From NCBI RefSeq assembly GCF_900105535.1, contig NZ_LT629779.1, positions 1-64,000 on the forward strand: DNA of 64,000 bases. The letters run 5' to 3'. The notes under the pieces were generated by a model. That model saw only the letters and a program-made list of their open reading frames with translations, had not been told where the DNA came from and did no database searches. The translations under genes were made by a program, and so were the position numbers. Shown here piece by piece: positions 8,613 through 29,696 of this stretch (positions are counted from its first letter, which is position 1; each line of letters starts with the position of its first letter). The stretch comes from Pseudarthrobacter equi. GTDB lineage: Bacteria > Actinomycetota > Actinomycetes > Actinomycetales > Micrococcaceae.

Positions 8613-8804
8613 TGGTATCTCCGCAACGTCAGGAATTCGATTGTCAAAAGTTGGAGCAGGCGGCAAAATGTCGGGTTCGGGAATCCACAGTTTATCAAGC
8701 CCGGGCGCCTGACCCGTCGCGGTTTCCCGGCCGCCGCGCGTCATTCCGCGCCAGTCAGGGCTTCGGTCCGCATCCTGTTCGCCCTCGGCGGATACGATGC
8801 AGCT

Positions 8805-10227: not shown

Positions 10228-10235
10228 GCTTAACC

Positions 10236-10713: not shown

Positions 10714-10718
10714 CCCCT

Positions 10719-11889: not shown

Positions 11890-11917
11890 GCGAAATCGGT
11901 ACGGAGTGCCGGTTGCG

Positions 11918-12493: not shown

Positions 12494-12626
12494 CGTCCCA
12501 AATTACCGTATGGGATATCCACAGCCACATTCTTTCGTTGTTGCTGTTGTCCAGTGGGGCTAATGTTGCCTCAGATACACAGGCGCCGGATGGTCTCCCG
12601 GATGGCCCAACAGAGCTGGGGATGTT

Positions 12627-14408: not shown

Positions 14409-14493
14409 GCACCAAACCGTAAGTACCAGGGCAGAAGGCGGAGAACCCTCACTGGGCCGGCGGCGGAAGCTGGTGGGCCGGGACGTCGCCTGG

Positions 14494-14955
14494 CTAGCTG
14501 ACGGTCTGCAGCTCCAGTACGTCCTTGAGCCGGTCCAGCTGGGATACCTCGGCGCGGACCCGTCGCTGGGCGATCTTATTCAGGAGGCCGAACCGGTCAA
14601 GGAAGGAGAACGAGCCTTCCGGCCGGGCTTCGAGCGCGTAGCGGAGCCGGGTGCCGTCGTTCTCGGTGCTGAGGTAGTAGCCGCCCGAACGGTTCGACGG
14701 GCCGGAGGTCACCCGGAACTGGATTTCGGCGCCGGGCCTGGCCTGGGTGATTTCCAGCTCGGCCGGAATGCTGAGCCCGGACCGCCCCGCCACCATCTTG
14801 CGGTACACGGCGCCTTTGGTGCCGGCAGAGCCCTGCACCAGCTTCACGCTCCGGACAGCTTCGCGCCACGTGGGCAAGTTGGTGGCGTCCAGCAGGTACA
14901 GGTACACGGCCATGGCGTCACGCCGGATGAGGACCTCGTGTTCTGCGGATGCCAT
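14494..14955 (-). CDS. SRPBCC-fold (polyketide cyclase/START-like) protein
   Basis: This 153-residue protein starts at the ATG at 14955 (MASAEHEVLIRRDAMAVYLY). The pattern of an early strand, two helices with NLPTWREAVRSVKLVQG, and a long C-terminal helix (FGLLNKIAQRRVRAEVSQLD) is that of the SRPBCC superfamily, which binds hydrophobic ligands in a deep cavity. No ligand can be inferred. It converges on the CAP-domain gene with 85 bp between stops. It is the first gene from the left, other than dcd, that reads without frame breaks. Confidence 0.8.
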   Translation of the reverse strand: MASAEHEVLIRRDAMAVYLYLLDATNLPTWREAVRSVKLVQGSAGTKGAVYRKMVAGRSGLSIPAELEITQARPGAEIQFRVTSGPSNRSGGYYLSTENDGTRLRYALEARPEGSFSFLDRFGLLNKIAQRRVRAEVSQLDRLKDVLELQTVS

Positions 14956-15192
14956 GGGGATCTTTCTGTGGTTGACGCCGGCATGCTGCCCGGACCGCCT
15001 CCCCCTGGCGCCACAGCATTCCGGTTCAGGTTAGCCAGCCCGCCGGGTGCCAACCTAGCCAGATGCGGCGACGTTATTGAAGAGTTACTGGATGACGTGC
15101 CGGACCTGGGACACGGCTGGAACTGCCGGCACCGTGGCCGGACCGCCGTTCCATCTGCGCTAAGCTAAGTTCTGCCCCGCAGATGCGGCGGC
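14956..15192. other. Intergenic: probable stranded 5' flank of the tRNA-Gly gene
   Basis: No gene is visible. Joining this sequence to 29629 and removing the element with one target copy recreates an upstream region running straight into the tRNA-Gly gene. The natural tRNA promoter therefore probably lies in this stretch, perhaps around CTAAGCTAAGTTC at 15159-15173, now 14.4 kb away from the gene it served. The promoter placement is an inference. Confidence 0.5.
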
Positions 15193-15201
15193 AACGCGGC
15201 T
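15193..15201. repeat. Left copy of 9-bp target-site duplication, AACGCGGCT
   Basis: The bases AACGCGGCT directly precede the left terminal repeat of the element, and the same nine bases directly follow the right one at 29620-29628. In the tRNA gene they cover three upstream bases and tRNA nucleotides 1-6. Confidence 0.85.
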
Positions 15202-15220
15202 GGGACTGGTCAATAATCCC
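15202..15220. repeat. Left terminal inverted repeat of the element
   Basis: The 19 bases read GGGACTG-GT-CAATAATCCC. The outer 7 and inner 10 bases are identical to the inverted right end, which has 14 bases rather than 2 between them. The first three and last three bases (GGG...CCC) also make each end weakly self-complementary. Confidence 0.8.
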
Positions 15221-15339
15221 CACAGACGCTAGAAGACGCAGTAGGCAAAATGCCCCAGAAACGCGTAATGCCCGTTTTGGGAACGCACTGCCAGACTCAC
15301 ACAGAAAATCATGTCGGTGTTAGGCGCTATCTTTGAAAC

Positions 15340-15720
15340 ATGGCTAAGAAACCGAACCCCGAGGTATGCGATATATACGTCGCTGACCCCACGGAGATCA
15401 ACGTTCGGGACGATCACAAAGAGAAGATCACCCGTCGATACGGAATTGCGGAAGCTTCAAAGAAGTCCTTTACCGTGCAAGCTATTGGACGCACCACGGA
15501 CGAACCACGGGCTGACGAGAAGATTGATCCCGTTCATTCCCCAAGAAATGATGACATTGGGTTGACTAAGGAAGGGTGGTGGATCGTTCGGTACCGCTGC
15601 ACGATCGGAAAGGCACTCTTCAAAGAGGATGTTCTGGACCACAGAGGTGAGCTTCTCGCTCCAGAGTCGGACGCATTCAATGACCTTTGGCACAAGAACT
15701 CTGTTCTCGGCTACTACTGA
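15340..15720 (+). CDS. Hypothetical protein, 126 residues
   Basis: The first gene of the island starts at the ATG at 15340 (MAKKPNPEVCDIYVADPTEI). It is hydrophilic and has no signal peptide, membrane segment or motif that I recognise. The C-terminal half contains WWIVRYRCTIGKALFKEDVL, a strand-rich stretch. It lies 42 bp upstream of the next plus-strand gene and may share its transcript. Function unknown. Confidence 0.55.
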   Translation: MAKKPNPEVCDIYVADPTEINVRDDHKEKITRRYGIAEASKKSFTVQAIGRTTDEPRADEKIDPVHSPRNDDIGLTKEGWWIVRYRCTIGKALFKEDVLDHRGELLAPESDAFNDLWHKNSVLGYY

Positions 15721-15762
15721 TACACTGATCTACTGCCCACTTCACAGATCGGCACGCCTGCA

Positions 15763-16653
15763 TTGAAACTCCTTGATCGCAGCCAGCTTCCCAGCGAGGC
15801 TGTCCGAATTATCGACGGCGGCACCCCCGCCGCACCAAAAGCTGGTGACGTGTGGGTGCTGGCAGATGAGATTCAAGACCTTGCTCTAGGTCTAATTACG
15901 CGTGTCCATGATTCCTTCGTGTCTATCCTTCCGATCACCTGCGATGCCGCCGAAGCTAGAGAGCCTGCTTCCATCGTTCGCGCCGCACAGTCGCCCATAA
16001 ATGCAGACATTGCAGTCTGGTCGCCTGCACCGACAGGGATCGGCATGCACCTTCTGGACCGTCGTATCGGGAACCTCTGCTCTGAAAGCGCAGCACTGAG
16101 ACTGGAACGATCAGCTTTCGACGACGACGTGGACAGCCCTTTTGAAATGGGCGCTGAAATGGAATCCGATGACACGACCCCATTCATCGACTTTTTGTTG
16201 AGCAGCTTTCGCAAGTTTTGCTTTGATTCGTGGCCGTCTGCCACGGCTGGAGAGGCGGTATTCAAGACAGAAGCTCTCATGGAAGCTGAAATGACCGCCA
16301 AGAAGATTCGTGAAAATTTGAACATTCCTGAACGCGGGGACGCTGCCGACCTCTTTCGCGGCGATGCGTTGCCGACTTCTGCACAGATATCCGTAATGCG
16401 CGAGATCACTGGTCTCACTGATTCCCAACTCCTTCGTCCGGTCAGCTCTGAAGTAGTAACCGAGTTGATGCAACCAACCCAGCGGGACAAAATCGTAAGC
16501 TTGGCAGAGCGCAGGGCGTTGAAGCAGCGTGATGCAAGAAACTTACTCATGCAGAATGCATTGATCGCAGCTCGCAGTTCCAAAGCTGGCGATGAACGAC
16601 AAGCGGCGCAAAACCGCATCGACGAAGCGTATTCGCGTCTGATGCAGGAGTAG
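15763..16653 (+). CDS. Unknown protein paired with an ImmA/IrrE-type protease gene
   Basis: The predicted 296-residue protein uses a TTG at 15763; a different start is possible because no clear ribosome site is seen. The N-terminal part (PKAGDVWVLADEIQDLALGL then SFVSILPIT) has the short-strand pattern of an SH3/PemK-like barrel; this is a weak structural guess. The middle is acidic and the C-terminus is a charged helical stretch (RALKQRDARNLLMQNALIAA). The stop is 6 bp before the ATG of the metalloprotease gene, so the two are almost certainly co-transcribed and probably act together. Confidence 0.65.
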   Translation: MKLLDRSQLPSEAVRIIDGGTPAAPKAGDVWVLADEIQDLALGLITRVHDSFVSILPITCDAAEAREPASIVRAAQSPINADIAVWSPAPTGIGMHLLDRRIGNLCSESAALRLERSAFDDDVDSPFEMGAEMESDDTTPFIDFLLSSFRKFCFDSWPSATAGEAVFKTEALMEAEMTAKKIRENLNIPERGDAADLFRGDALPTSAQISVMREITGLTDSQLLRPVSSEVVTELMQPTQRDKIVSLAERRALKQRDARNLLMQNALIAARSSKAGDERQAAQNRIDEAYSRLMQE

Positions 16654-16659
16654 CTGGCA

Positions 16660-17703
16660 ATGCTTACAACTCTTACTGATTACCGACTTTGGGCACTGCC
16701 CCGCAACTACGTGAAAATTGCCGACGCCATGATCCAAGAAATACTGGATTCCGGTGCGGTTTTTGAAGACATTGCGGACGCCCCTGTGGAGTATGTTGAA
16801 TCGCGTGGCGACCTTGACGTTATCTTCCATGAGCTGCGGGGAACCAAGGGATGCAATGTTCAGGCGTGCTATGACCCCTACATCGATCCTCCGGCAATCT
16901 TCGTCCACCTAAGCGGAAACACCGGGCGCGACAACTTCAGCGTGTTGCATGAACTTGCCCACCATCAACAACGAGTTGGCGACGCTTGGTCCGATATCAC
17001 TGAAGACATCACCGATCGAGCCTTCATAAAGGAACTTCGCGAGAAGGTCGCCAACAGTTTCGCGTCCAGACTTCTACTTCATGAGGATTTGATCGAGTCC
17101 GCGTTCGGTTCAGGACCTGTAACCGCCGCTGGGGTGAGATGGTTGTTCGATAACTCGGCAGCATCCATGCAGGCATGTCTCTATCGATCCCTTGAACTTG
17201 AAGGCAATAGGGTTGTCATGCAGACAGACTCTGACGGCAGGCTTTTCTTCAGCGCGGCAAATAGCGATGAACTATTCCCACCCCACAAGGATAAAACTCA
17301 GGAAGAGATTGCTCGCTCCTTCGAGCGTCTACAGGCTAGCGAGGACGGAAGCTTAGTTGTTCGTGGCGGGTACGGTATCCAGCACCTCAGCGGAAAGAGC
17401 TACACCAACGTTGTACTCGACATGGTTCTGTGCGACGGGTGCGTTCTCGTGATTGCCACCAAGGGACGCAGCGAGTACTTCGCCTTCAGTGACGACGGCG
17501 AGTACTACCAAGGCTCCGTCTGCCATGACAGCTTCCTGATTAAGGACTCTCCCGGTAGGTGTTCTACCTGTAACGAGCCGAAATGCTCGAAGTGTAAAGC
17601 CTGTGGATGCCCTGACAAGCAGCCTCCGCCATGCACCCGATGCTTCATGCTTTTGTCCGTTAATGACGTGCGTGCAGGGCGGACCGCACACGAAGATTGT
17701 TGA
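16660..17703 (+). CDS. ImmA/IrrE-family metallopeptidase with C-terminal Cys-rich tail
   Basis: The 347-residue protein has the zinc-protease motif HELAH at 97-101 in the context NFSVLHELAHHQQRVGD, followed by a downstream helix with E/D ligands, as in ImmA/IrrE (COG2856) proteases that cut repressors. Unusually, residues ~303-335 carry CSTC, CSKCKACGC and CTRC clusters, which look like one or two zinc ribbons. The usual fused or neighbouring HTH protein is not obvious; the partner is the 296-residue protein just upstream. In the island it may control or sense activation of the restriction or transposition genes. Role inferred. Confidence 0.75.
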   Translation: MLTTLTDYRLWALPRNYVKIADAMIQEILDSGAVFEDIADAPVEYVESRGDLDVIFHELRGTKGCNVQACYDPYIDPPAIFVHLSGNTGRDNFSVLHELAHHQQRVGDAWSDITEDITDRAFIKELREKVANSFASRLLLHEDLIESAFGSGPVTAAGVRWLFDNSAASMQACLYRSLELEGNRVVMQTDSDGRLFFSAANSDELFPPHKDKTQEEIARSFERLQASEDGSLVVRGGYGIQHLSGKSYTNVVLDMVLCDGCVLVIATKGRSEYFAFSDDGEYYQGSVCHDSFLIKDSPGRCSTCNEPKCSKCKACGCPDKQPPPCTRCFMLLSVNDVRAGRTAHEDC

Positions 17704-17788
17704 GGCAACGAAAATTGCCGCTGATACCGTGGTTCCCCAGCCAGACAATCGACAGAGACGCCATTGGTATTAAGACCACGGGAAACGC

Positions 17789-18334
17789 TTAGTAAAGCGC
17801 CGTATCCCATTTCAAAGCGCCCGCTGCGTGCCGTACCCCTCCTTCGCTCATGCTGCTGCCGCTGAAGTAGGACGTATTCCACTGCGGGACTTCTTCAGTT
17901 TCGGAAAACTCGCGATACCAGAGAGACAAGAACGTTCCCACGTTAGTGGCAGGAATGTTCAGCACGATTCTGCTGCCTCTACGGAAGATCGCCACGGGCG
18001 CACCTGCCGGGTTTTGAAACTCCACGGTGGAACCGCCGCAGTGAGGCGTAGCCTCCGCCATGACTACAACTGCCGGATCATAATGGTTACGCTCCAACAG
18101 CCAATAGTTCCCTTCCAGCTTCGTGAGGGACCAAGGCTCTTCACGCCCTACCTGTTTCCAGTCCTTGATCGCTACATCTAGAGCTTCAGTTGAGATTGCG
18201 TGGCTTGCCTCCGCTACCTTTTTGCTCTCTACTGCAACCTGTTTGCTTTCCTTCGAAACCTTGTAGGTGAGCCATGCGACGACGATCGTAAGAAGCGCGA
18301 TTACCGCCGTAGCGATCGTTATGACTTCAGTCAT
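17789..18334 (-). CDS. Membrane-anchored hypothetical protein downstream of the type I RM operon
   Basis: The 181-residue protein starts at 18334 (MTEVITIATAVIALLTIVVA), giving one N-terminal transmembrane helix followed by a charged coiled-coil-like segment (KVSKESKQVAVESKKVAEAS) and a ~110-residue beta-rich soluble domain. There is no signal cleavage site and no motif I recognise. It is the last gene of the minus-strand operon, 34 bp after the nuclease-like gene, and may be an accessory or immunity-type factor. Function unknown. Confidence 0.6.
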   Translation of the reverse strand: MTEVITIATAVIALLTIVVAWLTYKVSKESKQVAVESKKVAEASHAISTEALDVAIKDWKQVGREEPWSLTKLEGNYWLLERNHYDPAVVVMAEATPHCGGSTVEFQNPAGAPVAIFRRGSRIVLNIPATNVGTFLSLWYREFSETEEVPQWNTSYFSGSSMSEGGVRHAAGALKWDTALY

Positions 18335-18368
18335 ACACTGGTCCTGTTCTCATGTCATTGGATTCAAA

Positions 18369-19319
18369 CTATTTGATCGGAGATGAGAGGTCGAGATGAC
18401 CCAATTGAGCGCCAGCAGGGAAATCTTCTGACGACGTTACCGTTAGCACTTCTGGGCACTTTTCCACTCGCGCGGCGATTTCTTCCCCTAGAGCAAAAAA
18501 TCGTTCGTCTAGAAAAGAATCCAGATGTTTCGCCTGAACAACATCGATCCGCAATTGCAAATCCATCTTGTCCGTCTTGATGTGTCGCGTCACGTTCGAC
18601 CACGGCTTGCTGTGGGCTTCCAGTACATCAGCCTCTGTATCCACCTCGAATATGTCGTTTGAGGTAACGAGTATCGGAAGCGTCAAGCGGTTGAGCGAAA
18701 AGTTGGTATCTGGATTGAAGACGCCACGGGCTACCGTTCTTTTCGAGACGCTTTGCACTGCTTTAGCCATGGGCATGACGATTCCGTTGAACATATGGTC
18801 GTTATCAGCTATCCATTCCTTCTTTCGCTCCATGACTACGAGTTGATTGCCAATAAAGCTATCAGCGCTCGGACTGCCGGGAGCGGAAGCGAGGTCTAAA
18901 ACGCTCCAGACCGAGCGGCGGGTGGAGCCTCTACTCGCCGTGCTTGGAGGAACTGGCGGAATAGGTATGGAAATACCCTCGTGCGCATAAAACTTTGCAC
19001 CGAAAGGGACCCGCGCCTTTTCGGTGTCCTTTGCAGCCCTTCCGACTATCACGTACGGCGACTTCGGATTCTTGCACTCAATCAGTAATTGGATGCCGAA
19101 AACGATGCGTCGGCTCTCATGTGTATAGAACTGCTTATAACCCCACACATCGATCTCACGGGATTTACCTTCGTCGGGGTCCTCATACGCACGAGACACC
19201 TCACACTGAATGTCGCGCTTCTCTAGCACCTTTCGAACGTCTTGTTCAAGGATGAAACCAGTCTGACGAAGGGCAGCGATTACGTCTTCTGATGATGGTC
19301 CGGAGTTGAGTTGGTTCAT
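18369..19319 (-). CDS. PD-(D/E)XK nuclease-like protein of the type I RM operon
   Basis: The 316-residue protein begins MNQLNSGPSSEDVIAALRQT. The segment SREIDVWGYKQF (Asp57) followed by FGIQLLIECKNPKSP (Glu81-X-Lys83) is the core pattern of a restriction-endonuclease-fold (PD-(D/E)XK) active site. Its ATG overlaps the hsdR stop (ATGA), so it is translationally coupled to the type I enzyme. Standard type I loci have no such fourth gene. It could be a separate nuclease effector, a DNA-end sensor or a regulator of HsdR. Function inferred only from the fold motif and position. Confidence 0.7.
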   Translation of the reverse strand: MNQLNSGPSSEDVIAALRQTGFILEQDVRKVLEKRDIQCEVSRAYEDPDEGKSREIDVWGYKQFYTHESRRIVFGIQLLIECKNPKSPYVIVGRAAKDTEKARVPFGAKFYAHEGISIPIPPVPPSTASRGSTRRSVWSVLDLASAPGSPSADSFIGNQLVVMERKKEWIADNDHMFNGIVMPMAKAVQSVSKRTVARGVFNPDTNFSLNRLTLPILVTSNDIFEVDTEADVLEAHSKPWSNVTRHIKTDKMDLQLRIDVVQAKHLDSFLDERFFALGEEIAARVEKCPEVLTVTSSEDFPAGAQLGHLDLSSPIK

Positions 19320-22300
19320 GCCGCTTCCTCATCCCGAAGCTTCTCGAAAAGCCCCATCTTCTTGAGCAACTCCACCATCTCGCCCACCTTGTCGGAGGAC
19401 AGGACCCAGCCAATACCCTTGGCGTGCTGCTCCCCTGCCTCGATGACAGAATCCTCGACGGTAGTCAGAATCTTGGGTGACGAGTAGAAGTCCACCTTGC
19501 CGTTCGCCTGCGCCTGACCCCGCAGCGTTCGGTTCTCCAGTGCCTTGTTCAGCACGCTCTCTGCCACGGAGAGCTGGTCGGCATCGGTCAGTCCAGAACC
19601 CTCAAAGAAGGTGTTCATCTGGTCAATGATCTCCGCCCACTTTGCCTTCTTGACTTCGTGGGCTGAACCGGTTCCAGCAGCCGTCAGCGGGTCGAGAGGT
19701 ATGGACTCATCACCTGACAGCTTCAGGTCAGCCTTTTCCTGCTTCTTGAGCTTGTAGTGAGTCATCACTACCTCGGACAGGTCAACTGTCGTTCTGTCCT
19801 GATTCTCCGAGCTGATTACACGCGCGAGCAGCTTGTAGAAAATCGACCGCTTCTCCAGATCGGTGTCTTGATAGTCGATGATTTGCGACAGGAAGTCGTA
19901 AGCGCGGATGAAGCTGCCAAGGTCCTTACGGAACAGGTCCAGCGCGTCCTGTGCAGTCTTGTCGCCGTCTTCCCGCGCCTTCTGGTAGCGAACCCGGAAC
20001 CGTGACTGCGCAGGCGCTACAAAGCCCTTCAGCTTCTCATGAGTGGTCTTCCCAACCCACGCGGCAGCCGTCGCCTCGACCTCGCTGATCTCGTAGATAC
20101 CAGCGCTATCCAGCTTCGCTTGGAGGTCATGCACGATGTCCGGATCAGTGACCGCAGAAAGTTCGGCTTCCTTGTGGTACTGCTGGAACGCGGCAAGGAT
20201 TTCCGCCGGGTCATTCACAAAGTCGACGATGAACGTTTGGTCCTTGCCGGGAGTCACTCGGTTCAAGCGTGAGAGGGTCTGCACGGCAGTGATGCCAGAC
20301 AGTTTCTTGTCCACGTACATCGCAACAAGCAACGGCTGATCAAAGCCAGTCTGGAACTTATTGGCAACCAGCATGATCTGGTACTCATCGGTGTTGAATG
20401 CCTTCGGAAGCTCACGCCCCTTGAGACCGGGGTTCATCGTGTGCTCATTTAGCTTGCCGATGCCGGATTCGTCGTCGATTATGTCGCCCGAGAATGCGAC
20501 GAGCGTTGCCAAGTCCTTGTAGCCCTTGTCGGCAATGTACTTATCGATAGCCACCTTGTAGCGGACAGCTTCCTTCCGGGAGCCAGTAACAACCATGGAC
20601 TTCGCACGCCCTGCGAGGTGGTGACGCACATTGGAGCGAAAATGCTCCACGACGACGGCAACTTTTTGACTGATGTTATATGGGTGAAGTTTCACCCAGC
20701 GCATCAATTCCTTGACGGCTTCAGACTTCTCGATCGTCGTCTCGTCAGAGTCGTAGTCCACGCCGTTGTGCGCGAGCTTGAACGCCATCTTGTAAGGCGT
20801 GTAGTTCTTCAGCACATCGAGGATGAAGCCTTCCTCAATTGCCTGCTGCATCGAGTACAGGTGGAAGGGCGCGGGTAGTCCGGCTTCGTTGGGACGCCCG
20901 AACAGCTCCAGCGTCTTAGCCTTCGGCGTTGCGGTGAATGCGAAGAACGACAGGTTCTTGCTTTCCGCGCGCTTGTTCATTTCTTCTGCGAGCACGTCTT
21001 CTGTGGAAAGCTCAGCTTCCGGATCGACTTCAGCGTCGACGGCGGCTTCATTGCCGGAGGTCAGAACCTTCTTCAGGTTCTTCGCTGCGTCACCGGACTG
21101 TGAGCTATGCGCCTCGTCCGCGATGATGGCGTACGACTTGCCCTTCAGTCCCTTGTTTTTGGCGATCTCATCAAGAGCGAAGGGGAAGGTCTGGAGCGTC
21201 ACACCAATAATTTGGGTGCCACCAAGAAGTGCCTTGGAAAGTGCCTTCGACTTTGCGCCGCCAGTGGAGGTAATGGCTTCAAATACCCCATCCACCTTGT
21301 TGAGCTGCTTGACAGCATCCTGCAACTGCCCATCCAGTACCTTGCGGTCACTGATCACGATCACGGCATCGAACATCTTCTTGCCATCGGCATCGTGCAG
21401 GGAGTTGAGCCGGTGAGCAGTCCATGCGATGGAGTTTGTTTTGCCAGAACCAGCAGAGTGCTGGATCAAGTACCGGTGTCCCGGTCCTTCGGCGGCAGCA
21501 GTTTCCGCCAGCTTGTTTACCGCTTCCCACTGGTGGTAGCGCGGGAACAGCAATGATTCGTTCTTGGTCTTCTCGCCCGTGATCGGGTCCGTCTTCTCCT
21601 CAACGTGCAGGTGCATGAACTTACTGATGATGGTCAGCCAAGAATCGCGTTCAAGAACCCGCTCCCACATGTAACTCGTCTCCGAGCCGTTGGGGTTGAC
21701 CGGGTTGCCCTTGTGCCCGTCATTGCCCATGTTGAAGGGGAGGAAACGCGTCTTCGCGCCGCGCAGATGTGTGGTCATGAAACACTCGGCGTTAGACATG
21801 GCAAAGTGCACTAACGCTCTATGCCCGAACGAGAACAGCGGTTCACGCTGCCGCGTGACGGCATCCACGGGGAGACGGTTTGTCTTGTACTGGTCCATCG
21901 CGTCTTGCACCGTCTGGGTGAAGTCCGTCTTCAACTCCATAGTGGCGACAGGAATGCCGTTGACGAAGAAGACGAGATCGACGCTGTTCTGGTTGCTGGT
22001 GGAGTAGTAGACCTGCCGCATGACGCGCAGACGAATTTTCGCGTAGTCGGCGGTGGTCTTCGGGTTCTTGTCGTCGTTGGGCTTCAATTGCGACATGCGG
22101 AACGAAGCTGGCGTCGCCTTGAACCCATTTCGGAGAACAGCGAGGGTGCCGCCCCCTGATTCCAGTGGGGCATCGAGCACCTTGACGAGCCGGGTGAGCA
22201 GCCGTTTGAAAGACTTGTTCTGCACGTCCGGGGAGTCAGTTGGCTTGACGATCTTCTCAAGCTCTTCGGGCTGGGTGTCCGTCAACCATCCGCGCACGTC

Positions 22301-22420
22301 CTCGGGGAACAGGGCGAGTTCCTTGTCGTATCCTGTACCGTTCTCTGAGTACAGCCAGCCGTGGCCGTGCAGGTACTCCCCGATGCCCTTCTCGAATTCA
22401 ACCTCGTTGTATATCGCCAT
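19316..22420 (-). CDS. hsdR: Type I restriction enzyme, R (restriction/translocase) subunit
   Basis: The 1034-residue protein has an N-terminal nuclease domain with Asp148, Glu162-X-Lys164 (VDLVFFV...ATMELKTDF), a superfamily 2 helicase motor with Walker A HSAGSGKTNS (Lys327), DEAH at 435-438, TATPK, and motif VI-like region VANKFQTGFDQPLLVAMYVD, then a C-terminal helical domain that docks on the HsdM2S core. It pumps DNA with ATP and cuts it away from the recognition site when the target is unmethylated. It starts 2 bp after the hsdS stop. All key motifs look intact, so it is probably active. Confidence 0.93.
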   Translation of the reverse strand: MAIYNEVEFEKGIGEYLHGHGWLYSENGTGYDKELALFPEDVRGWLTDTQPEELEKIVKPTDSPDVQNKSFKRLLTRLVKVLDAPLESGGGTLAVLRNGFKATPASFRMSQLKPNDDKNPKTTADYAKIRLRVMRQVYYSTSNQNSVDLVFFVNGIPVATMELKTDFTQTVQDAMDQYKTNRLPVDAVTRQREPLFSFGHRALVHFAMSNAECFMTTHLRGAKTRFLPFNMGNDGHKGNPVNPNGSETSYMWERVLERDSWLTIISKFMHLHVEEKTDPITGEKTKNESLLFPRYHQWEAVNKLAETAAAEGPGHRYLIQHSAGSGKTNSIAWTAHRLNSLHDADGKKMFDAVIVISDRKVLDGQLQDAVKQLNKVDGVFEAITSTGGAKSKALSKALLGGTQIIGVTLQTFPFALDEIAKNKGLKGKSYAIIADEAHSSQSGDAAKNLKKVLTSGNEAAVDAEVDPEAELSTEDVLAEEMNKRAESKNLSFFAFTATPKAKTLELFGRPNEAGLPAPFHLYSMQQAIEEGFILDVLKNYTPYKMAFKLAHNGVDYDSDETTIEKSEAVKELMRWVKLHPYNISQKVAVVVEHFRSNVRHHLAGRAKSMVVTGSRKEAVRYKVAIDKYIADKGYKDLATLVAFSGDIIDDESGIGKLNEHTMNPGLKGRELPKAFNTDEYQIMLVANKFQTGFDQPLLVAMYVDKKLSGITAVQTLSRLNRVTPGKDQTFIVDFVNDPAEILAAFQQYHKEAELSAVTDPDIVHDLQAKLDSAGIYEISEVEATAAAWVGKTTHEKLKGFVAPAQSRFRVRYQKAREDGDKTAQDALDLFRKDLGSFIRAYDFLSQIIDYQDTDLEKRSIFYKLLARVISSENQDRTTVDLSEVVMTHYKLKKQEKADLKLSGDESIPLDPLTAAGTGSAHEVKKAKWAEIIDQMNTFFEGSGLTDADQLSVAESVLNKALENRTLRGQAQANGKVDFYSSPKILTTVEDSVIEAGEQHAKGIGWVLSSDKVGEMVELLKKMGLFEKLRDEEAA

Positions 22421-22422
22421 AC

Positions 22423-23751
22423 CTACGCAGCCCCCAGCTCAGCAGTAATGTGGTTTCGAACGTCAATCTTGCCCGTCACGGCAGCGGAAATGAGCGCAGC
22501 GCGCCGCTCCTTAGACAGCTCAATCGCTTCCTTTGCATCAGCTATTGCGGCGTCAATTTCGGCAGTCTCGTAGTCGAGATAGACAGTAATTTCCCTCTGC
22601 TCATCAACGGGAGGAACTGGAACTGGCAAAGTGGCATATTTGTCAGCACCGATGTTCTGAATCGTGGCGACCGTTTGCGACGCATTCTTCCAATCAAGAA
22701 ATGGCGTCGACTGGAAGAACCTGTATGCGAACTGCGGCAGGAGCAACTTCGGATCGCACTCAACCCTGATGAGATAGCCCGCGAAGCAACTGGGCGGACT
22801 GTCCTCCGGCACAATGAATGCTTTCCCTACAGTTGCTCCGCTTCGTGCCAGCAAGATGTCATGAGGTTTCACCATGTAGTCCGCTGCAACTTCCGGTGGC
22901 AAGGACCTGAAAGTCTCGTCCTTGAGTTTTCCATCGTAGCCGAAATCAGTGATCCTCAAATAACGCACCCAGTCGGGGTTATCAAATTCCGCCGCTTCGT
23001 TCGCCCCATACTTCAGTTTTGACGCCAGCAGATGCCTCAAGGAAGCGGTGCGCCAACCCTGAGGTACTTTTCCAAGCCACTCAACACCGCTGCCCTTCAT
23101 CTGGACAGTTAGGTCGAGACCCTTTGTCACCGCCTGTGTAATGGTGGCTGTTCGCCGCTCATTCAGTAGCTCGATAAGTTCCTCCTGATCCGCAATAAAG
23201 TCATCGATCTCGGCGGTCTCTCGGTCGAGGTAGGACACGATGGCGCGCTGTTCACCCAACGAGGGAACCGCGAGAGGTAACCACTTCATGTCGGAGAACT
23301 TCATTGACTGCCGAAGCCCGCCGCCCATGAAATAGAAAACCTTCCGAAGGTCGCAGTCCCGAAGTGCATACGCCACGAAACGGGGAAGAACACCCTCGCA
23401 TCGTACCGACAGATACGCAGAAGTTATTATCCCGCGTTCCGCCGCGATAGCGGATCTTAAGCTTCGTTTGTCATTCTGCAAGTCGGTCAGTCGCAAAACA
23501 ATGTCATCCGCCTCGATCACCTGATACGTTTCGAATGACTCGGGTAAGAGTCCCGCGTTCGAACTAATATCTTTACGAATGACCCTCCCATAACTGAGGG
23601 AAAGCAGATTATCCTCCACCATCCCCCGGTTCGAGCGCTTATTCTCCCTTACTAGCGAGAAGAATGGGCGGACGGTCCAAGATGCGGGGATAATTCCCAT
23701 CCACTCTACGTTGCTGTTTTTGTACTCTGGATAAGGCTTTACACCGCTCAT
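22423..23751 (-). CDS. hsdS: Type I restriction-modification specificity subunit S
   Basis: The 442-residue protein has the two-fold HsdS layout: target recognition domain 1 (about 15-165), conserved helix 1 with LDRETAEIDDFIADQEELIE and RRTATITQAVTKG, target recognition domain 2 (about 225-375), conserved helix 2 with LDYETAEIDAAIADAKEAIE and RRAALISAAVTGK. The matching repeats EWMGIIPASW and EWLGKVPQGW open each half. The two domains each read half of a bipartite DNA site. The ATG overlaps the hsdM stop. The recognition sequence cannot be read from the protein. Confidence 0.92.
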   Translation of the reverse strand: MSGVKPYPEYKNSNVEWMGIIPASWTVRPFFSLVRENKRSNRGMVEDNLLSLSYGRVIRKDISSNAGLLPESFETYQVIEADDIVLRLTDLQNDKRSLRSAIAAERGIITSAYLSVRCEGVLPRFVAYALRDCDLRKVFYFMGGGLRQSMKFSDMKWLPLAVPSLGEQRAIVSYLDRETAEIDDFIADQEELIELLNERRTATITQAVTKGLDLTVQMKGSGVEWLGKVPQGWRTASLRHLLASKLKYGANEAAEFDNPDWVRYLRITDFGYDGKLKDETFRSLPPEVAADYMVKPHDILLARSGATVGKAFIVPEDSPPSCFAGYLIRVECDPKLLLPQFAYRFFQSTPFLDWKNASQTVATIQNIGADKYATLPVPVPPVDEQREITVYLDYETAEIDAAIADAKEAIELSKERRAALISAAVTGKIDVRNHITAELGAA

Positions 23752-25715
23752 GCCTTTACCGCTTCCAAACGGGCACGGATACGCCCAAGAACCGCGTCAA
23801 GATCATCGTCAATAGATTCCAGCGATCGAGGTTCCTGATACTTGTAGAAGTGACGAGTGAAGGGGATGTCGTAGCCAATTCTGGTCTTCGACTCATCTAT
23901 CCAAGCATCCGGGGCAAACGGGATTACCTCACGCTCGAAGTATTCCTGAACGTCCTCAGTCAGCGGCACGTTCTCAGTGTCACGCAGGTCCGGATCGGCT
24001 TCCGGCATGCCCTTAGCGTTGGTACTGATCTCGCCAGCTTCGTCACGAGCAGAAAGTCCTGTGACGAGTGCTTTGATCTGTGGCGCGGTGAGGCTTACTC
24101 CTCCGTTCTTTAGCGCGGTCCTGATGTCAGTAGTGAAGCCATCGCGGTTTGTCCACACATACTCCGGGTTCAGTTCCGACAGCGCCTCACGCAGTGCAAC
24201 AGCTTCGTTGTCAGTCAGTTTCACCAATCCCTTGGACGCCAATGCGGCGGCTATCCGATCCTCGTTAACGGCAAAGTTGATTCGAAGGGGACGCTCAACA
24301 GTGATCGTTTGGTAACCGAAGTCAGCGATCTTGAGAACTTTGCTGTGCTCGGACTCAGCGTCAGCGTATGCACCGTAGAGCTTCACGATGCTCTCGATGT
24401 GCTTCTCGCCAAGTTCCTTTCGCTTGGAGCCAAGGCTCTTACGCATCGTTCGGAAGAATTGTTCACCGGAGGCGTCTATGAGTTGGACAGTCCCCTTGCG
24501 TTCCTCAGACTTCCTGTTGGTAAGGACCCACACGTACGTGGAAATGCCCGTGTTGTAGAACATGTCAGTGGGCAGCGCGATGAGCGCCTCCAACAGATCG
24601 TTCTCCAGAATGTATCGACGAATCTCCGATTCACCGGAACCAGCGCCACCCGTAAACAACGGTGAACCGTTCAGGACGATGGCAGCGCGTCCGCCGCCGT
24701 CCCGAACCGGGCGCATCTTCTTGATGAGATGCAGCAAAAAGAGCAGGGACCCATCGGAGACGCGGGGCAGTCCGGGACCGAAGCGACCCTCGTAGCCCTG
24801 TTCCTTGTGTTCCTTCTCGACGATCGGCAGGGACTTCTTCCAGTCGACGCCGAAGGGAGGGTTGGACAGGCAGTAGTTGAAGGTCTTGCCGATGTGTCCG
24901 TCGTCCGTCAGCGTGTTTCCAAGGACAATCGCGCCAATGTCCTGTCCCTTGATCACCATGTCTGCTTTGCAGATGGCGTAGGACTCTGGGTTCAGTTCCT
25001 GACCAGCGAGGGTCAACGTGGCATCCGGGTTCATCTTCCGGATGTGCTCATCCGCAACCGAAAGCATGCCACCAGTACCTGCGGTGGGGTCATAGATGGA
25101 TCGGACGATGTTCGCCTTGTCCAGATCGTTGTCGTCCGGGGCGAAGAGGATGTCCACCATTAGGTGAATGACCTCACGCGGAGTGAAGTGCTCACCGGCG
25201 GTCTCGTTGGACGACTCCGCGAACTTGCGGATCAGTTCCTCAAAGATCAGACCCATCTCAGTGTTGGTGACATTGCTTGGGTGAAGATCGACGGCAGCGA
25301 ACTGCTGCGCGATCAGGAACAGCAGGTCGTGCTCATGCAGTTCCTCGATGCGCTCTTCAAGCTTGTATTTCTCGAAGATGTCACGCACGTTGTCGGAGAA
25401 CCCGCGCACATAGTCGAGCAGGTTGTCACGAACGTTCTCGGCGTCACCTGTCAGTTTCTGGAAGTCGTACTTCGAGGTGTTATAGAACGCGTGCTTTGAC
25501 TTCCGGGGAAGAAGTACCGTGAGCGGGATACCGCCGTCCTTTGACTTCTCATACTCTGCCAGCACGTCTTCCTTGGTCTCCGCCAGCACAGCGTCCAAAC
25601 GGCGGAGGATCGTGAAGGGAAGGACGATGGAGCCGTACTGGTGAGGGCGGTATGAACCCCTCAGCAGATCGGCAATGCTCCAGATGAAGTTGGCGTAGTT
25701 GTTGTTGCTAGACAA
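23748..25715 (-). CDS. hsdM: Type I restriction-modification DNA methyltransferase subunit M
   Basis: The 655-residue N6-adenine methyltransferase has an N-terminal helical HsdM domain (SIADLLRGSYRPHQYGSIVL), SAM-binding motif I at 209-216 (YDPTAGTGGML), and the catalytic motif IV NPPF at 285-288. The chosen start is a TTG at 25715 behind a GGGGG stretch. It forms the methylase with HsdS and protects the host DNA, and with HsdR makes the restriction complex. Gene order hsdM-hsdS-hsdR with overlapping ends indicates one transcript. Confidence 0.93.
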   Translation of the reverse strand: MSSNNNYANFIWSIADLLRGSYRPHQYGSIVLPFTILRRLDAVLAETKEDVLAEYEKSKDGGIPLTVLLPRKSKHAFYNTSKYDFQKLTGDAENVRDNLLDYVRGFSDNVRDIFEKYKLEERIEELHEHDLLFLIAQQFAAVDLHPSNVTNTEMGLIFEELIRKFAESSNETAGEHFTPREVIHLMVDILFAPDDNDLDKANIVRSIYDPTAGTGGMLSVADEHIRKMNPDATLTLAGQELNPESYAICKADMVIKGQDIGAIVLGNTLTDDGHIGKTFNYCLSNPPFGVDWKKSLPIVEKEHKEQGYEGRFGPGLPRVSDGSLLFLLHLIKKMRPVRDGGGRAAIVLNGSPLFTGGAGSGESEIRRYILENDLLEALIALPTDMFYNTGISTYVWVLTNRKSEERKGTVQLIDASGEQFFRTMRKSLGSKRKELGEKHIESIVKLYGAYADAESEHSKVLKIADFGYQTITVERPLRINFAVNEDRIAAALASKGLVKLTDNEAVALREALSELNPEYVWTNRDGFTTDIRTALKNGGVSLTAPQIKALVTGLSARDEAGEISTNAKGMPEADPDLRDTENVPLTEDVQEYFEREVIPFAPDAWIDESKTRIGYDIPFTRHFYKYQEPRSLESIDDDLDAVLGRIRARLEAVKA

Positions 25716-25864
25716 GATTGCCCCCGGCGAGTCAGTACATGCGAGATATTGAAATTCATGCTATCCCGCGCTGAGCGCCAACTTTCTTGGGGCATATTTT
25801 GTTCGCCGTTGGCACCAGACCTTGCTTTCTGACGTGCAGGCAGGTCTGGTGCCAACCAATGCGA

Positions 25865-26101
25865 CTACCCCTTGATATTGCGAGGATCGTTACCCGGCTT
25901 CACAGTGTCGGCGGCACGAATCTGGCCGTCAGTACCATGGATGCTTACCTCTCCACCGCCCGCGTTGCCCACGATGGTCTTGGCACGACTGATCGCTTCC
26001 TTCTGCGTGTCGGTGACCGCGCTTGCGCGCTTCGCGTCCGGGGCAACAACAGCCCAGCCGTCATCTCTCTTTAATACGTGTCGGTTATTGGGATTGCTCA
26101 C
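25865..26101 (-). CDS. Small DUF2188-like protein
   Basis: A 78-residue protein starts at the GTG at 26101, which is preceded at a good distance by AGGAGG (26106-26111), so this start is preferred over longer readings. The pattern HVLKRDDGWAVVAPDAKRAS followed by TQKEAISRAKTIVGNAGGGE and VSIHGTDGQIR matches the small DUF2188 family, often seen near restriction and other defence genes. No biochemical role is known. It lies 149 bp upstream of hsdM on the same strand and could be the first gene of that operon. Confidence 0.8.
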   Translation of the reverse strand: MSNPNNRHVLKRDDGWAVVAPDAKRASAVTDTQKEAISRAKTIVGNAGGGEVSIHGTDGQIRAADTVKPGNDPRNIKG

Positions 26102-26621
26102 TGAGACCTCCTGAAGTTGGAACTGCTGACAATGGCATGGTCGCACCCCACGCCGACATTTACCGGCAGGGCATTCGAAGTCCCCAGCAGGGCGACAATT
26201 CGAAACGGCCACGGAAGAAATGCCTGTTCTCCAATAGCGAAAAGTGGACGGTCATCGCCGCGAAATTGCCGGATTCCCAAGGATTCGCACCACTGTCGCC
26301 ATAATTGACATTTCTACTTCGGGACTCATCGCCGCTGGCCGTAACGAGAGATCGGTGCTTCGATCGGGATTGACTAACCCGCGCCCAAACAAAGGATTCA
26401 CCGCGAAGATGTCCGCAACATTCAAGCGTCCCGTCGCTTAAAGAGGAATGACTCCAGCGCCAAACTGAGGTCATTCAGAATTCCTTGACTAACGCGAACC
26501 CACTCGCGCTAATCCACTCCTACAAGAGAGTAGTTCCATGGTACCGGCCGTTTCAGGCACAAAGCAATCAAGCCTGTCAGCGTTGGGCGAACAATTCCCT
26601 GATAGAGAACTTGGTGGTTCT
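26102..26621. other. 520-bp gap inside the island, no supported gene
   Basis: I find no reading frame with a convincing start, length or protein pattern in this stretch. It is A/T-richer than the host chromosome and lies between the DUF2188-like gene and the tail of the XRE regulator, both on the minus strand. The hsd-operon promoter may lie at its left end. Confidence 0.4.
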
Positions 26622-26918
26622 TCACGCAAGTCGAGGCGAGGGGAGCAATTCCCTACCGAGCGCTTTCTCCAGCAAGGCGATGGTACCGAGGTCGGGGACG
26701 GTATGCCCCTCGATGATGCTCAGGACAGTGGTGTGCGAAACACCGGCAAGTCGTCCCAGCTCACGGAGTCCGAGCCCCTGATCATCCATGGCGGCGACAA
26801 GAGCACTGGCAAACAGGCGAGCGTACTCAGCGGAGATGTTGCTGGACAGGTCAGCAGTAAGCCACTGGACGCCTTCTCCGGCGATCTCAGCGGGTCTGAC
26901 AGCCTTCCTCTGCGCCAT
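26622..26918 (-). CDS. XRE-family HTH regulator of the transposition module
   Basis: Using the ATG at 26918 the protein has 98 residues (MAQRKAVRPAEIAGEGVQWL). Residues ~35-90 form a Cro/C1-type helix-turn-helix: MDDQGLGLRELGRLAGVSHT then TVLSIIEGHTVPDLGTIALL. It is divergent from the recombinase/transposase pair. A palindrome TGGTC-N8-GACCA covers its start codon and a -10-like TACAGT (minus strand, 26925-26930), and a matching one lies at the facing promoter, so it probably represses itself and the transposition genes. The transcript may be leaderless. Confidence 0.83.
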   Translation of the reverse strand: MAQRKAVRPAEIAGEGVQWLTADLSSNISAEYARLFASALVAAMDDQGLGLRELGRLAGVSHTTVLSIIEGHTVPDLGTIALLEKALGRELLPSPRLA

Positions 26919-26936
26919 GGTCCAACTGTAGACCAC
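26917..26936. promoter_or_regulatory. Operator 1, TGGTC-N8-GACCA, over the XRE start
   Basis: The inverted repeat ATGGTC-caactgta-GACCAC includes the XRE start codon. It has the same arms and 8-bp spacer as the second site at 27046. Binding would block XRE transcription and translation start. Confidence 0.65.
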
Positions 26937-27013
26937 CCCGTCCGCAGCGCGGCAGTCCCTTGGTATCTCGTCGGCGCTCCCGCAGATTTTCTTCTGGCAA
27001 ACAGTCAAGGGTC

Positions 27014-27044
27014 TTGTCAAACACCCGACTCCCGTGTTTATAGT
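27014..27044 (+). promoter_or_regulatory. Probable promoter of the recombinase/transposase pair
   Basis: TTGTCA at 27014-27019 resembles a -35 box. TTTATA at 27037-27042 (17-bp spacing) or TATAGT at 27039-27044 (19-bp spacing) could be the -10. Either predicts initiation within the downstream palindrome at 27046-27065. No experimental support. Confidence 0.5.
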
Positions 27045-27045
27045 G

Positions 27046-27065
27046 GTGGTCTATATATCGACCAC
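27046..27065. promoter_or_regulatory. Operator 2, perfect GTGGTC-N8-GACCAC palindrome
   Basis: Arms GTGGTC and GACCAC are separated by TATATATC. The site lies at the expected transcription start of the recombinase gene and matches operator 1 in arm sequence and spacing, which is the arrangement expected for an XRE dimer. Confidence 0.7.
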
Positions 27066-27089
27066 TCGATAAACATGGAAGCAGATGCC

Positions 27090-28022
27090 ATGGCGAAAAC
27101 CAAGCCAGAGCAGGGCGTCCTCCTCATTGAAGCCGTGGACCTAGTGCTCAAGCACTGGAAAGACACGAACGCGCTGACGGAGGCGTCCCACGCCAAGTTC
27201 GATGACCTTCTCCACCGCTACGCCAAATTCGCCCAAGCACACAACGTCCCGGTCTTTGCCGATCAGACAGAAGCGCTGGCAGCAAAGTGGATCAAGGCTA
27301 AGGGCACGTCCCGGCACGGCGTCGTCTCTGAGCCTGCCACTGCTACCCAGAACACGCGGCGTTCGGCGCTCCGTAAGTTCTACCGTGATGCTGAGGAACT
27401 CCGCATACATGGCTCAGGACTTGTAGTCCGAACTCGCGTAGGTCCCCGTTCTCCCGGTCTCGCGCGTCCACTGACGGAAGAAGAAGCGCGAAATGTTTGG
27501 CTTTACGCCAAGGATGCTGGTCCTCGCACGCGCCGTCCCGTGATGTTCGCTTTGCTACTGTCTGGCGTCCACTCCTCGGAAGCTGGGATTATCACCACGA
27601 GTGACGTGGATATCGCCAATCAGCGCGTCTGGGCGCACGGTGACACTACGCGCATGGAAGCGCGGTGGGTGAAGATTCCCGACATCTACTTCTCAGCCAT
27701 TGTGGAGCGCGTCGAGTACCTGCGGGCATGGATGCCGCCACACCGCACCTTTGAGACTTTTCAGCTCACGCAGGGTACATCCCAGCAACCGATGGGTCAC
27801 GCGCAAAACCGGGCAGCATCAGCGTGTGTCGAGGTATTCAGGAGGGCGGGACTCGGGGATGACCCGCGCATCACCCCGTCGTCCGTGTCTCTTTATGCAG
27901 GCTCGCGCATGCTCATCGACGGCGAGCGCATCGAGGTCATCGCGCACGCACTCGGCTACAGGTCCATCGATTCTTGCGTCGCCGCTCTTGGCTACAACTG
28001 GCGGACGGGGGAGATCGGCTAA
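27090..28022 (+). CDS. Tyrosine-recombinase-fold protein lacking catalytic arginines
   Basis: The preferred start is ATG 27090, 7 bp after GGAAG; ATG 27075 is an alternative. The 310-residue protein has an N-terminal SAM-like core-binding region (LLIEAVDLVLKHWKDTNALT...) and a catalytic-domain-like part. At box I, where active enzymes have G-hydrophobic-R, it reads LLLSGVHSSEAGIITTSDVD, with His161 replacing Arg. At box II, the usual HxLRH is replaced by TPSSVSLYAGSRML, and LGH becomes LGYRS (Tyr290). A tyrosine (302) remains near the end. It is therefore likely inactive as a recombinase and may bind DNA for the DDE transposase, whose start follows 3 bp after its stop. Confidence 0.75.
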   Translation: MAKTKPEQGVLLIEAVDLVLKHWKDTNALTEASHAKFDDLLHRYAKFAQAHNVPVFADQTEALAAKWIKAKGTSRHGVVSEPATATQNTRRSALRKFYRDAEELRIHGSGLVVRTRVGPRSPGLARPLTEEEARNVWLYAKDAGPRTRRPVMFALLLSGVHSSEAGIITTSDVDIANQRVWAHGDTTRMEARWVKIPDIYFSAIVERVEYLRAWMPPHRTFETFQLTQGTSQQPMGHAQNRAASACVEVFRRAGLGDDPRITPSSVSLYAGSRMLIDGERIEVIAHALGYRSIDSCVAALGYNWRTGEIG

Positions 28023-28025
28023 CCC

Positions 28026-29405
28026 ATGGGGAAACTAGGGCATGGCTCTCCGGCAGACAAGGAATACGGTTGGACTCCCCACCGTAGGTCTCTTGCTGCC
28101 CTGCGCTCGCCCTACATCCCCGAAATGGCAGCTATCATCCCCAAGCGTGATGGGTCCAAAGCCGGTCGACCCAATCATCACCCGGATCACGTTTACCTTC
28201 TTGTTTTGGCAATCCTCGGTATCCACGGATCGCACCGCAGCGCGATTGCGTGGCTACGAGAAGACACGAACTGGTACAAGGTGCGATCGCACGCTCGCCG
28301 CTTCTGGGACATCGAGCTTGCCACCACGCCGCCGAAACGCAGTACGGTCACCTACAACCTTGACCGGCTATCCCCTTACGCTGATCTTCTGAGTGACAAG
28401 TTCACGTTGCTCGCCATCGAACAGGCGCAGAAGCAAGGGTGCCTGATTGAAGGTCCGGAAACGATGAGTAAGCCCAAGCGTGGCAACATTCTGGTTGCTG
28501 ACGGCACCGTGCCCAAGACTCGGATCACAGAGACCACTCGTAAGAGACTCATCGAAAAGGGCGTGAAGCTACCCGAGGTCGATGAGCACCGAGAGGGAGG
28601 CGAGGACAAGGGTGTCCGTGTGCTGGGGTTCAAGGAACTGTTGGTTGCAGTACGACCTGATGCTTTCCCGAATTCGCGCATCATCCTGAGCCGAACCCAC
28701 GTGCCAAAAGAGAAGGGCTATGGCGGCGAAGCGGGCATAGCGGTTCGGGAGATGGAGAAGCTGCGAAAACTGACTAAGGGATTCCTTGGTCTCCGCTATG
28801 ACGGCGCGATGACCGGCATGCACCTCGACGCCATGCTGAAACTAGGTGTCAGCGCCATTTCTCCGGTTCCAAAAGACAATATCCAGCGGATGCTCTATGA
28901 CATCGATTGCACCTGCGGTAACCAGCACACCCTGCACACAGAGGGTGGAGAATTCGTTGAGCTGGACGTGCTGGACACCGGAAAGACCTACTCGGTGCCG
29001 TGCAAGCGAGTAGAGCAGTATTCACGGAAGAATGCCGATGGCACACACCGCTGGTATGCAAAGCTGCTACTGATGTGCGGGGAGCACCGCACCGAGCGAC
29101 TCGACACCACCGCCGCAGACAAGAAGCTCGGCTTCAATCGCGCGCACCATGTCCGGCTGCACCCTCCGGAGAGTCAGTACTACAAGGACACCTACGGCTA
29201 CCGAGCAGACATCGAGAGCGTAAACAATAACTTGGATTCCACTCTCTACCGTCACCGCATGATCACGGACACCAAAGGACGGCAGGCGTTGGTCGTCCTC
29301 GGTTTTGCTATGGCACGGAACGCGATAAGCGCCGAGGTCTACGCCGCGCGACTAAAAGCTGGGCACTTCAGCGATCCGCCAAAGGAACTGGCATCAGCGG
29401 CATGA
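28026..29405 (+). CDS. DDE transposase, IS4-like (YREK-type)
   Basis: The 459-residue protein has candidate catalytic residues Asp159 (ILVADGTV), Asp259 (GLRYDGAM) and Glu397 in YGYRADIESVNNNLDSTLY. The spacing Tyr390-(2)-Arg393-(3)-Glu397-(6)-Asp404 follows the IS4-superfamily Y(2)R(3)E(6)K signature, with Asp in place of Lys. IS4-type enzymes often make 9-bp target duplications, as seen at the ends of this island. The insertion between Asp259 and Glu397 contains CTCGNQH and CGEH, a possible zinc site. It is coupled to the recombinase-fold gene and is the likely mover of the 14.4-kb element. Confidence 0.8.
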   Translation: MGKLGHGSPADKEYGWTPHRRSLAALRSPYIPEMAAIIPKRDGSKAGRPNHHPDHVYLLVLAILGIHGSHRSAIAWLREDTNWYKVRSHARRFWDIELATTPPKRSTVTYNLDRLSPYADLLSDKFTLLAIEQAQKQGCLIEGPETMSKPKRGNILVADGTVPKTRITETTRKRLIEKGVKLPEVDEHREGGEDKGVRVLGFKELLVAVRPDAFPNSRIILSRTHVPKEKGYGGEAGIAVREMEKLRKLTKGFLGLRYDGAMTGMHLDAMLKLGVSAISPVPKDNIQRMLYDIDCTCGNQHTLHTEGGEFVELDVLDTGKTYSVPCKRVEQYSRKNADGTHRWYAKLLLMCGEHRTERLDTTAADKKLGFNRAHHVRLHPPESQYYKDTYGYRADIESVNNNLDSTLYRHRMITDTKGRQALVVLGFAMARNAISAEVYAARLKAGHFSDPPKELASAA

Positions 29406-29438
29406 CACATCGGTAAGAGGACCAAGAAGCCTAAGATA

Positions 29439-29463
29439 AGCCTGTCTCCGGACGGGCTTTCTG
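29439..29463 (+). terminator. Hairpin terminator after the transposase gene
   Basis: AGCCTGTC and GACGGGCT pair over 8 bp (one G-T pair) with a 4-base loop, followed by TTTCT. It lies 34 bp after the transposase stop. Confidence 0.7.
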
Positions 29464-29588
29464 TGGTTTTAGGGAGGTTTCACCCCCGCCCTCAAGCCCT
29501 CGGGCAACCCAAAACGGGGGAATAACCAGCAGTGTCGCGGTTCCGAGGGAACTTCAGACTGAGGTAGTGTAAAGCTCGTTGTTTGACC

Positions 29589-29619
29589 GGGATTATTGTC
29601 CAATTTTTTGGACAGTCCC
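29589..29619. repeat. Right terminal inverted repeat of the element
   Basis: Read on the minus strand from 29619 it gives GGGACTG, 14 bases, CAATAATCCC. The 14-base insertion relative to the left end creates an inner palindrome, GTCCAA-TTTT-TTGGAC, at 29598-29613. This could be a transposase or recombinase binding site specific to the right end. Confidence 0.8.
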
Positions 29620-29628
29620 AACGCGGCT
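29620..29628. repeat. Right copy of the 9-bp target-site duplication
   Basis: AACGCGGCT follows the right terminal repeat directly. Bases 29623-29628 are nucleotides 1-6 of tRNA-Gly, so the insertion left the tRNA gene complete. Confidence 0.85.
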
Positions 29629-29696
29629 GTAGCTCAATGGTAGAGCGCTAGCTTCCCAAGCTTGATACGCGGGTTCGATTCCCGTCAGCCGCTCCA
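29623..29696 (+). tRNA. tRNA-Gly(CCC), with encoded CCA
   Basis: The acceptor stem GCGGCTG pairs with CAGCCGC, followed by discriminator T and an encoded CCA. The D arm GCTC/GAGC, anticodon loop TTCCCAA (anticodon CCC), a 4-base variable loop, and T arm GCGGG-TTCGATT-CCCGT are all present; the anticodon stem CTAGC/GCTTG has one T-T mismatch. Its natural upstream region has been replaced by the transposon's right end, so it must now be transcribed from a promoter in the element or by read-through. Confidence 0.93.

Follow-up and report, generated by a model that had tools for sequence, protein, structure and literature searches.

A Tn5-like transposon at the 5' end of a tRNA-Gly gene in Pseudarthrobacter equi and an inactivated tyrosine-recombinase-like protein as its likely guide

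Transfer RNA genes are the classic landing sites of islands carried by tyrosine integrases. In the stretch of Pseudarthrobacter equi DNA analysed here (contig NZ_LT629779.1, positions 1 to 64,000; hereafter the window), a segment of 14.4 kb adjoins a tRNA-Gly gene and bears the ends of a DDE transposon. This raises the question of which enzyme moved the segment and what brought it to the tRNA gene. The answer in which we have reasonable confidence is that the segment is a cut-and-paste transposon homing to tRNA genes, with a dead recombinase as its guide.

The 9-mer AACGCGGCT is present twice in the window, at 15193–15201 and 29620–29628, and both copies abut inverted ends of the form GGGACTG...CAATAATCCC. 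The left end, GGGACTGGTCAATAATCCC (15202–15220, plus strand), is identical in the related element of genome G186 and nearly identical in that of G472; the right end, located by sequence and by a pattern search of the genome, reads inward as GGGACTGTCCAAAAAATTGGACAATAATCCC (29619–29589, minus strand). The right copy of the 9-mer spans positions −3 to +6 of the target gene, tRNA-Gly(CCC) (29623–29696, plus strand, ARAGORN), overlapping its first six bases and leaving the gene intact. The two ends are asymmetric, the inner motif lying 12 bp further from the terminal GGGAC on the right, and the same offset is seen in a mycobacterial element (GGGACCTGAC vs GGGACGTCTTTGGATACCTGAC) and in L055. The coordinates that the first-pass annotation gave for the repeats and the asymmetric ends proved exact on re-reading. 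The pattern GGGACTG-N(1-20)-AATAATCCC matches the window's two ends and one further left end at 4452678 in the same genome, which holds one copy of the transposase; the reversed control pattern has no match there.

Two features of the contig concern its assembly. The contig end (L102, G000:C1:4439200-4459078) repeats window positions 4587–21604 at 99.5% with 2 mismatches and 82 gaps, and this repeat, which holds the third left end, is probably untrimmed circular redundancy. Positions 1–9231 of the window align with the reverse complement of themselves (98.2%, 30 mismatches, 123 gaps), and look like a foldback artefact at the contig start.

If the segment arrived by a single insertion, genomes without it should carry one copy of the 9-mer. 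A query of the joined flanks was matched over positions 1–163 by G038 (99%), G054 (97%) and G468 (94%). In G038 and G054, which belong to the same genus, the flanks are joined as ...GGCGGC AACGCGGCT GTAGCTC... with a single copy, as such an insertion requires; in G038 the flanking matches extend over about 7.4 kb (92.9%) and 4.5 kb (94.1%). The equivalent 9-mer at the empty site of G468 is AATGCGGCT. Across the best 30 tRNA-Gly loci retrieved, with the P. equi genome itself counted in, 12 versions of the 9-mer occur, and its variation is confined to the first three bases, the strain-variable bases preceding the tRNA. The three Gly-type elements with both ends placed nonetheless have matching copies across the element: AACGCGGCT in the window, ACTGCGGCT in G186 and ATTGCGGGC in G472. 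Since the 9-mer varies by strain yet is equal on both sides, it is not explained by sequence that the element carries; matching strain-specific copies would be expected if host DNA was duplicated, and not if the element brought its own att core.

The strongest single case for one mobile unit is provided by Mycobacterium kansasii plasmid pMK12478. Its 44-kb element, running from 139483 through the origin to about 38666, is flanked on both sides by 9-bp copies CGTCCCACC at a site that is not a tRNA gene. With G186 and G472, copies with other 9-bp repeats, which had been proposed as a check on the window element, are known from three places. In G777 the DNA of the plasmid element adjoins tRNA-Arg(CCT), matching over 38.7 kb (99.99%) and 2.9 kb (100%) up to the contig end. 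The occurrence of the same DNA at a tRNA and at a non-tRNA site marks it as one mobile element with two kinds of site.

The enzyme at the right end is a DDE transposase of 459 aa (28026–29405, plus strand) with the triad D159/D259/E397. Tn5/IS4 is the best structural match of its model, and the predicted structure combines the triad with a Tn5-like fold; Foldseek alone gave no transposase match at E <= 0.001, and the Pfam family DDE_Tnp_1 was matched by 4 of 17 members, none over the cut-off (best E 0.092). YREK is the signature of IS4/Tn5 transposases, and its columns hold Y in 12/13, R in 13/13 and E in 13/13 proteins, with K replaced by D in 12/13. A 9-bp target duplication, typical of Tn5, is found in the window, G186, G472 and pMK12478; in L055 and L135 duplications of 9 and 10 bp are indistinguishable. 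The ends, the duplication, the empty site, the other copies and the Tn5-like model thus agree with the earlier reading of the segment as a single non-composite DDE transposon of the IS4 type. That reading stands as far as the identity of the transposon goes; it missed the more unusual features, which are a paired inactivated tyrosine-recombinase-like gene and the precise targeting of tRNA genes.

The paired gene lies directly upstream of the transposase (27090–28022, plus strand). It belongs to a 494-aa open reading frame from 26538 that overruns a helix-turn-helix gene on the opposite strand, and the protein was taken as about 310 aa. It resembles XerD by sequence (hmmsearch E 1.4e-12), and its model resembles XerA (5hxy; Foldseek E 3.5e-9, probability 1.00, TM about 0.5). 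The XerD catalytic residues are lost: in 19 aligned proteins Arg-I, His, His/Trp and Tyr are each retained in 0/19 and Arg-II in 4/19, so the R-K-H-R-H/W-Y set of an active tyrosine integrase is missing in the five columns scored (all but the Lys column). In three recombinases added last, two retain Arg at the Arg-I place, as judged by eye. Judged from these columns, the protein is catalytically dead, and it combines a tyrosine-recombinase fold with an inactivated catalytic site, as the TnsF family does. The opposite-strand gene encodes an XRE/HTH_3 regulator (26622–27020, minus strand, HTH_3 E 9.8e-7), which tblastn also finds in many, not all, relatives.

Precise targeting emerges from the relatives of the transposase. 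In the first sets (genus, family, class and named contigs), 16 loci have a tRNA on the same strand with its 5' end towards the transposase (Gly-CCC 4, Arg-CCT 9, Arg-TCT 1, Lys-TTT 2). A phylum sample, searched only after the pattern had been noticed, shows such adjacency in 10 of 16 judged loci (Arg-CCT 3, Lys-TTT 1, Phe-GAA 2, Thr-GGT 3, Ala-TGC 1), and three further loci of that sample end at a copy of a tRNA start. Together, 26 of 40 judged non-plasmid loci adjoin a tRNA of one of seven kinds, all 26 in one orientation, with 116–275 nt between transposase and tRNA in 25 loci and 1489 nt in L057. As background, a random site is expected, by our own rough estimate, beside such a tRNA in about 0.2% of cases; at five loci of other DDE_Tnp_1 transposases in the genus, no tRNA lies within the 1.5-kb flanks. 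The count of 40 covers loci with the transposase 3' end and flank present; L004, L061, L140, L160, L165, a partial second G807 copy and the upstream L135/L138 fragments stand outside it, as the 3' end or flank is missing or the copy is an inner tandem remnant. Of these 26 loci, 15 have a detected recombinase-like partner gene, which is truncated in L010 and partial in L057; no partner was detected in the other 11, which are remnants of the transposase or copies at a contig edge.

Both copies of the duplication could be placed at tRNA genes for the window, G186, G472, L055 and L135, left copies being placed for only a few elements. At the remaining tRNA loci end-like sequence reaches within a few bases of the tRNA, which suggests, rather than fixes, the exact insertion base. 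In L139, L172, L179 and L180 a tRNA-start copy directly follows the element end and is followed by other DNA, as in tandem insertion. The copies in L172 and L179 correspond to the own genome's tRNA, that in L180 to the tRNA of another genome of the same genus, and that in L139 to an Arg-type start known from other genomes; in L143 the contig stops inside the tRNA start. Several elements, as remnants or in tandem, are present in L135, L139, L172 and L179, where the junction holds a tRNA-start copy. Nine non-plasmid loci have no adjoining tRNA (L005, L060, L136, L137, L141, L144, L171 and two places in L170), L136 and L144 among them being unclear or rearranged remnants. L170 (G985:C1:380000-398000) holds two transposases about 2.2 kb apart with no tRNA nearby, one with a partner and one without; the full-length transposase at 10260–11894 has no recombinase-like partner even at E 0.5. 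Four distinct plasmid copies (L049/L064, L050, L051, L065/L066) also lack a tRNA, and three of them have an intact recombinase-like gene. The tRNA-Arg genes of L053, L055 and L057 have one or two G-U pairs from the 5' strand of the acceptor stem, and these pairs fall within the bases that the duplication would cover.

Which of the two proteins picks the tRNA was addressed by regressing recombinase-like identity on transposase identity with a pairwise label permutation, for the 13 of 26 elements with a known target and both proteins usable. Same-target pairs have recombinase-like identities 5.3 points higher (p 0.0005), or 3.2 points (p 0.04) when two of the three Gly elements are left out; a first run on 10 elements gave 5.8 points (permutation p 0.007). 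In the pairs with switched targets, Arg/Lys and Arg/Phe, the transposases are 62% and 59% alike and the recombinases 44% and 41%, while the three Gly/Gly pairs have transposases 44–59% and recombinases 65–67% alike. Two same-target pairs run against the trend, L059-L063 (Lys, residual −12) and L053-L054 (Arg, −8). The elements are related and their pairs not independent, so the test gives support, not proof, for the dead recombinase as the carrier of the address. We infer that the dead recombinase selects the tRNA target.

Alternatively, the Tn5-like transposase might find tRNA 5' ends alone, with the dead recombinase serving as a transcription regulator or an end-binding helper. Other domesticated recombinases act in both of these roles; the SPbeta prophage master regulator MrpR (8a0a) appears in the Foldseek list of our protein, and the plasmid insertions lie off tRNA genes despite an intact recombinase-like gene. 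We regard this reading as unlikely, because recombinase-like identity follows the target better than transposase identity does, and a recombinase-derived selector is described for Tn6022 (PMC10293859). Insertion at random, with survival only of copies at tRNA genes, appears very improbable: it would account for the copies away from tRNA genes, and it conflicts with the single orientation at 26/26 loci and seven tRNA kinds, with placeable ends that lie within a few bases of the tRNA 5' end, and with tandem copies that have the same insertion point. A conventional island moved by a tyrosine integrase through a short att core, with the DDE gene as passenger, is barely tenable, for all that the site is a tRNA, an integrase-like gene lies near one end and sources call it an integrase. 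Against it, Tyr, His, His/Trp and Arg-I are absent in 19/19 aligned proteins, and the element is bounded by inverted repeats. The 9-mers, moreover, vary with the host while being equal across the element in different strains, and the element that adjoins a tRNA in G777 is flanked by a 9-bp duplication on the plasmid, where its site is not a tRNA gene.

For a transposon guided to tRNA genes by a dead recombinase, the chemistry would be as follows. The Tn5-like transposase would bind the asymmetric ends, excise the element by cut-and-paste and join it across a 9-bp stagger at the 5' end of the tRNA gene, a joint that leaves the tRNA intact. The dead recombinase would recognise the chosen tRNA gene and guide the transposase to it. 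The space between the left end and the recombinase/transposase module would take up cargo, here the type I restriction-modification system. An outward promoter at the right end may stand in for the tRNA promoter left on the far side. Strains that lack the element have a conserved TAAGCTAAGTT block 24–35 nt ahead of the tRNA, and insertion displaces this native block by 14.4 kb. The last ~60 bases are conserved in four Gly-type right ends, with TAGTGT, TAATGT or TAGTCT about 58 nt before the tRNA; in the window, this block (29559–29619, plus strand, four-right-end alignment) has a −10-like TAGTGT at 29565–29570 facing the tRNA. TANNNT is found within 150 nt in 12 of 13 right ends, against a shuffle mean of 7.6, a level reached in 4 of 500 shuffles. 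An outward replacement tRNA promoter is plausible.

The cargo lies between the left end and the module. It opens with two open reading frames on the plus strand, of 126 aa (15340–15720; no Pfam match, but resembled by one near the left end in G186) and 296 aa (15763–16653; no family match), and an M78/IrrE-like peptidase domain protein, weakly CapP-like (16660–17703, plus strand; PF06114 E 1.6e-5, PADLOC capP E 2e-14). All following cargo genes are on the minus strand: a 181-aa open reading frame without a match above cut-off (17789–18334), a 316-aa one without a family match that adjoins hsdR (18369–19319), hsdR (19316–22420; TIGR00348 E 2.4e-56, under the curated cut-off, HSDR_N over its cut-off), hsdS (22423–23751; PF01420 E 2.2e-11, PADLOC E 6e-104), hsdM (23748–25715; PADLOC MTase_I E 4e-279, N6_Mtase E 4.7e-60) and a 115-aa DUF2188 protein (25865–26212; PF09954 E 3.5e-19). 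The three subunits found between the ends bear out the proposal that a whole type I system is carried as cargo. The G472 element carries a different type I system, and open reading frames of the G186 element match the window cargo in order, size and N-termini. Each of the three Gly-type elements for which both ends were placed has a gene of ~312–328 aa next to hsdR (window 18369-19319; L015:463-1401; L013:6609-7595); the N-termini of these proteins are alike by eye, and profile scans of the window and G472 copies gave no family match. The cargo of the pMK12478 element (NC_022654.1; L067, L071) comprises mce-like, sigma-factor and redox genes.

Taken more broadly, the loci would make up a phylum-wide, two-protein homing family without an ATPase, in which an inactivated recombinase steers a Tn5-like transposase to the exact tRNA 5' end, divergence of the selector has gone along with changes of target among at least seven tRNA species, and the end supplies a replacement promoter; we lean towards this view. 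A cut-and-paste transposon reaching tRNA genes with a dead integrase as likely guide would follow a Tn7-independent route. If the guide role is true, the pairing of a simple Tn5-like enzyme and a targeting protein separable from it would offer a compact model of target selection, and possibly a site-specific insertion tool without an AAA+ ATPase. The family also suggests how a load of genes, restriction systems included and ~44 kb in one relative, can be moved in one piece.

Among known systems, Tn5/IS4 elements share with the window element the best structural match, the second DDE spacing of 138 residues, the Y-R-E of YREK and the 9-bp duplication. They differ in the first spacing, 91 residues in Tn5 and 100 here, and in the K of YREK, here D; the window family further has a second gene for a dead recombinase, inserts at tRNA genes and gives no Pfam match over cut-off. 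In the literature searched, the nearest published idea was TnsF/Tsy (PMC10293859). TnsF aims the Tn7-like Tn6022 at comM through an inactivated tyrosine-recombinase domain; it is 498 aa long and has zinc fingers at its N-terminus, and Tn6022 works through Tn7 components, TniQ included. Both elements are cargo-bearing, with DDE transposition aimed, or here probably aimed, by an inactivated recombinase, at a fixed chromosomal site in Tn6022. The window element has one Tn5-like transposase and tRNA 5' ends as its target, and its protein is set apart from TnsF by length (~310 vs 498 aa) and target (tRNA vs comM); no TnsC (AAA+) or TniQ was recognised among the element reading frames scanned with general Pfam/NCBIfam profiles. 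Tsy likewise has a recombinase-type, TnsF-like selector outside Tn7; unlike the window element, it is moved by active tyrosine recombinases, is described without inverted repeats and targets comM (PMC10293859). CyCAST also homes near a tRNA gene, tRNA-Leu, but through TnsD and with insertion 30–33 nt downstream (PMC10293859). In fish, the DNA transposons called Dada are reported to insert into genes for tRNA or snRNA (PMC8869645); they are eukaryotic, and the likeness noted here is one of target. By analogy, the family would resemble TnsF targeting in outline, with a build that would be neither that of TnsF nor Tn7-like, and there is a fair chance that, as a variant among targeted DDE transposons, it deserves a class of its own.
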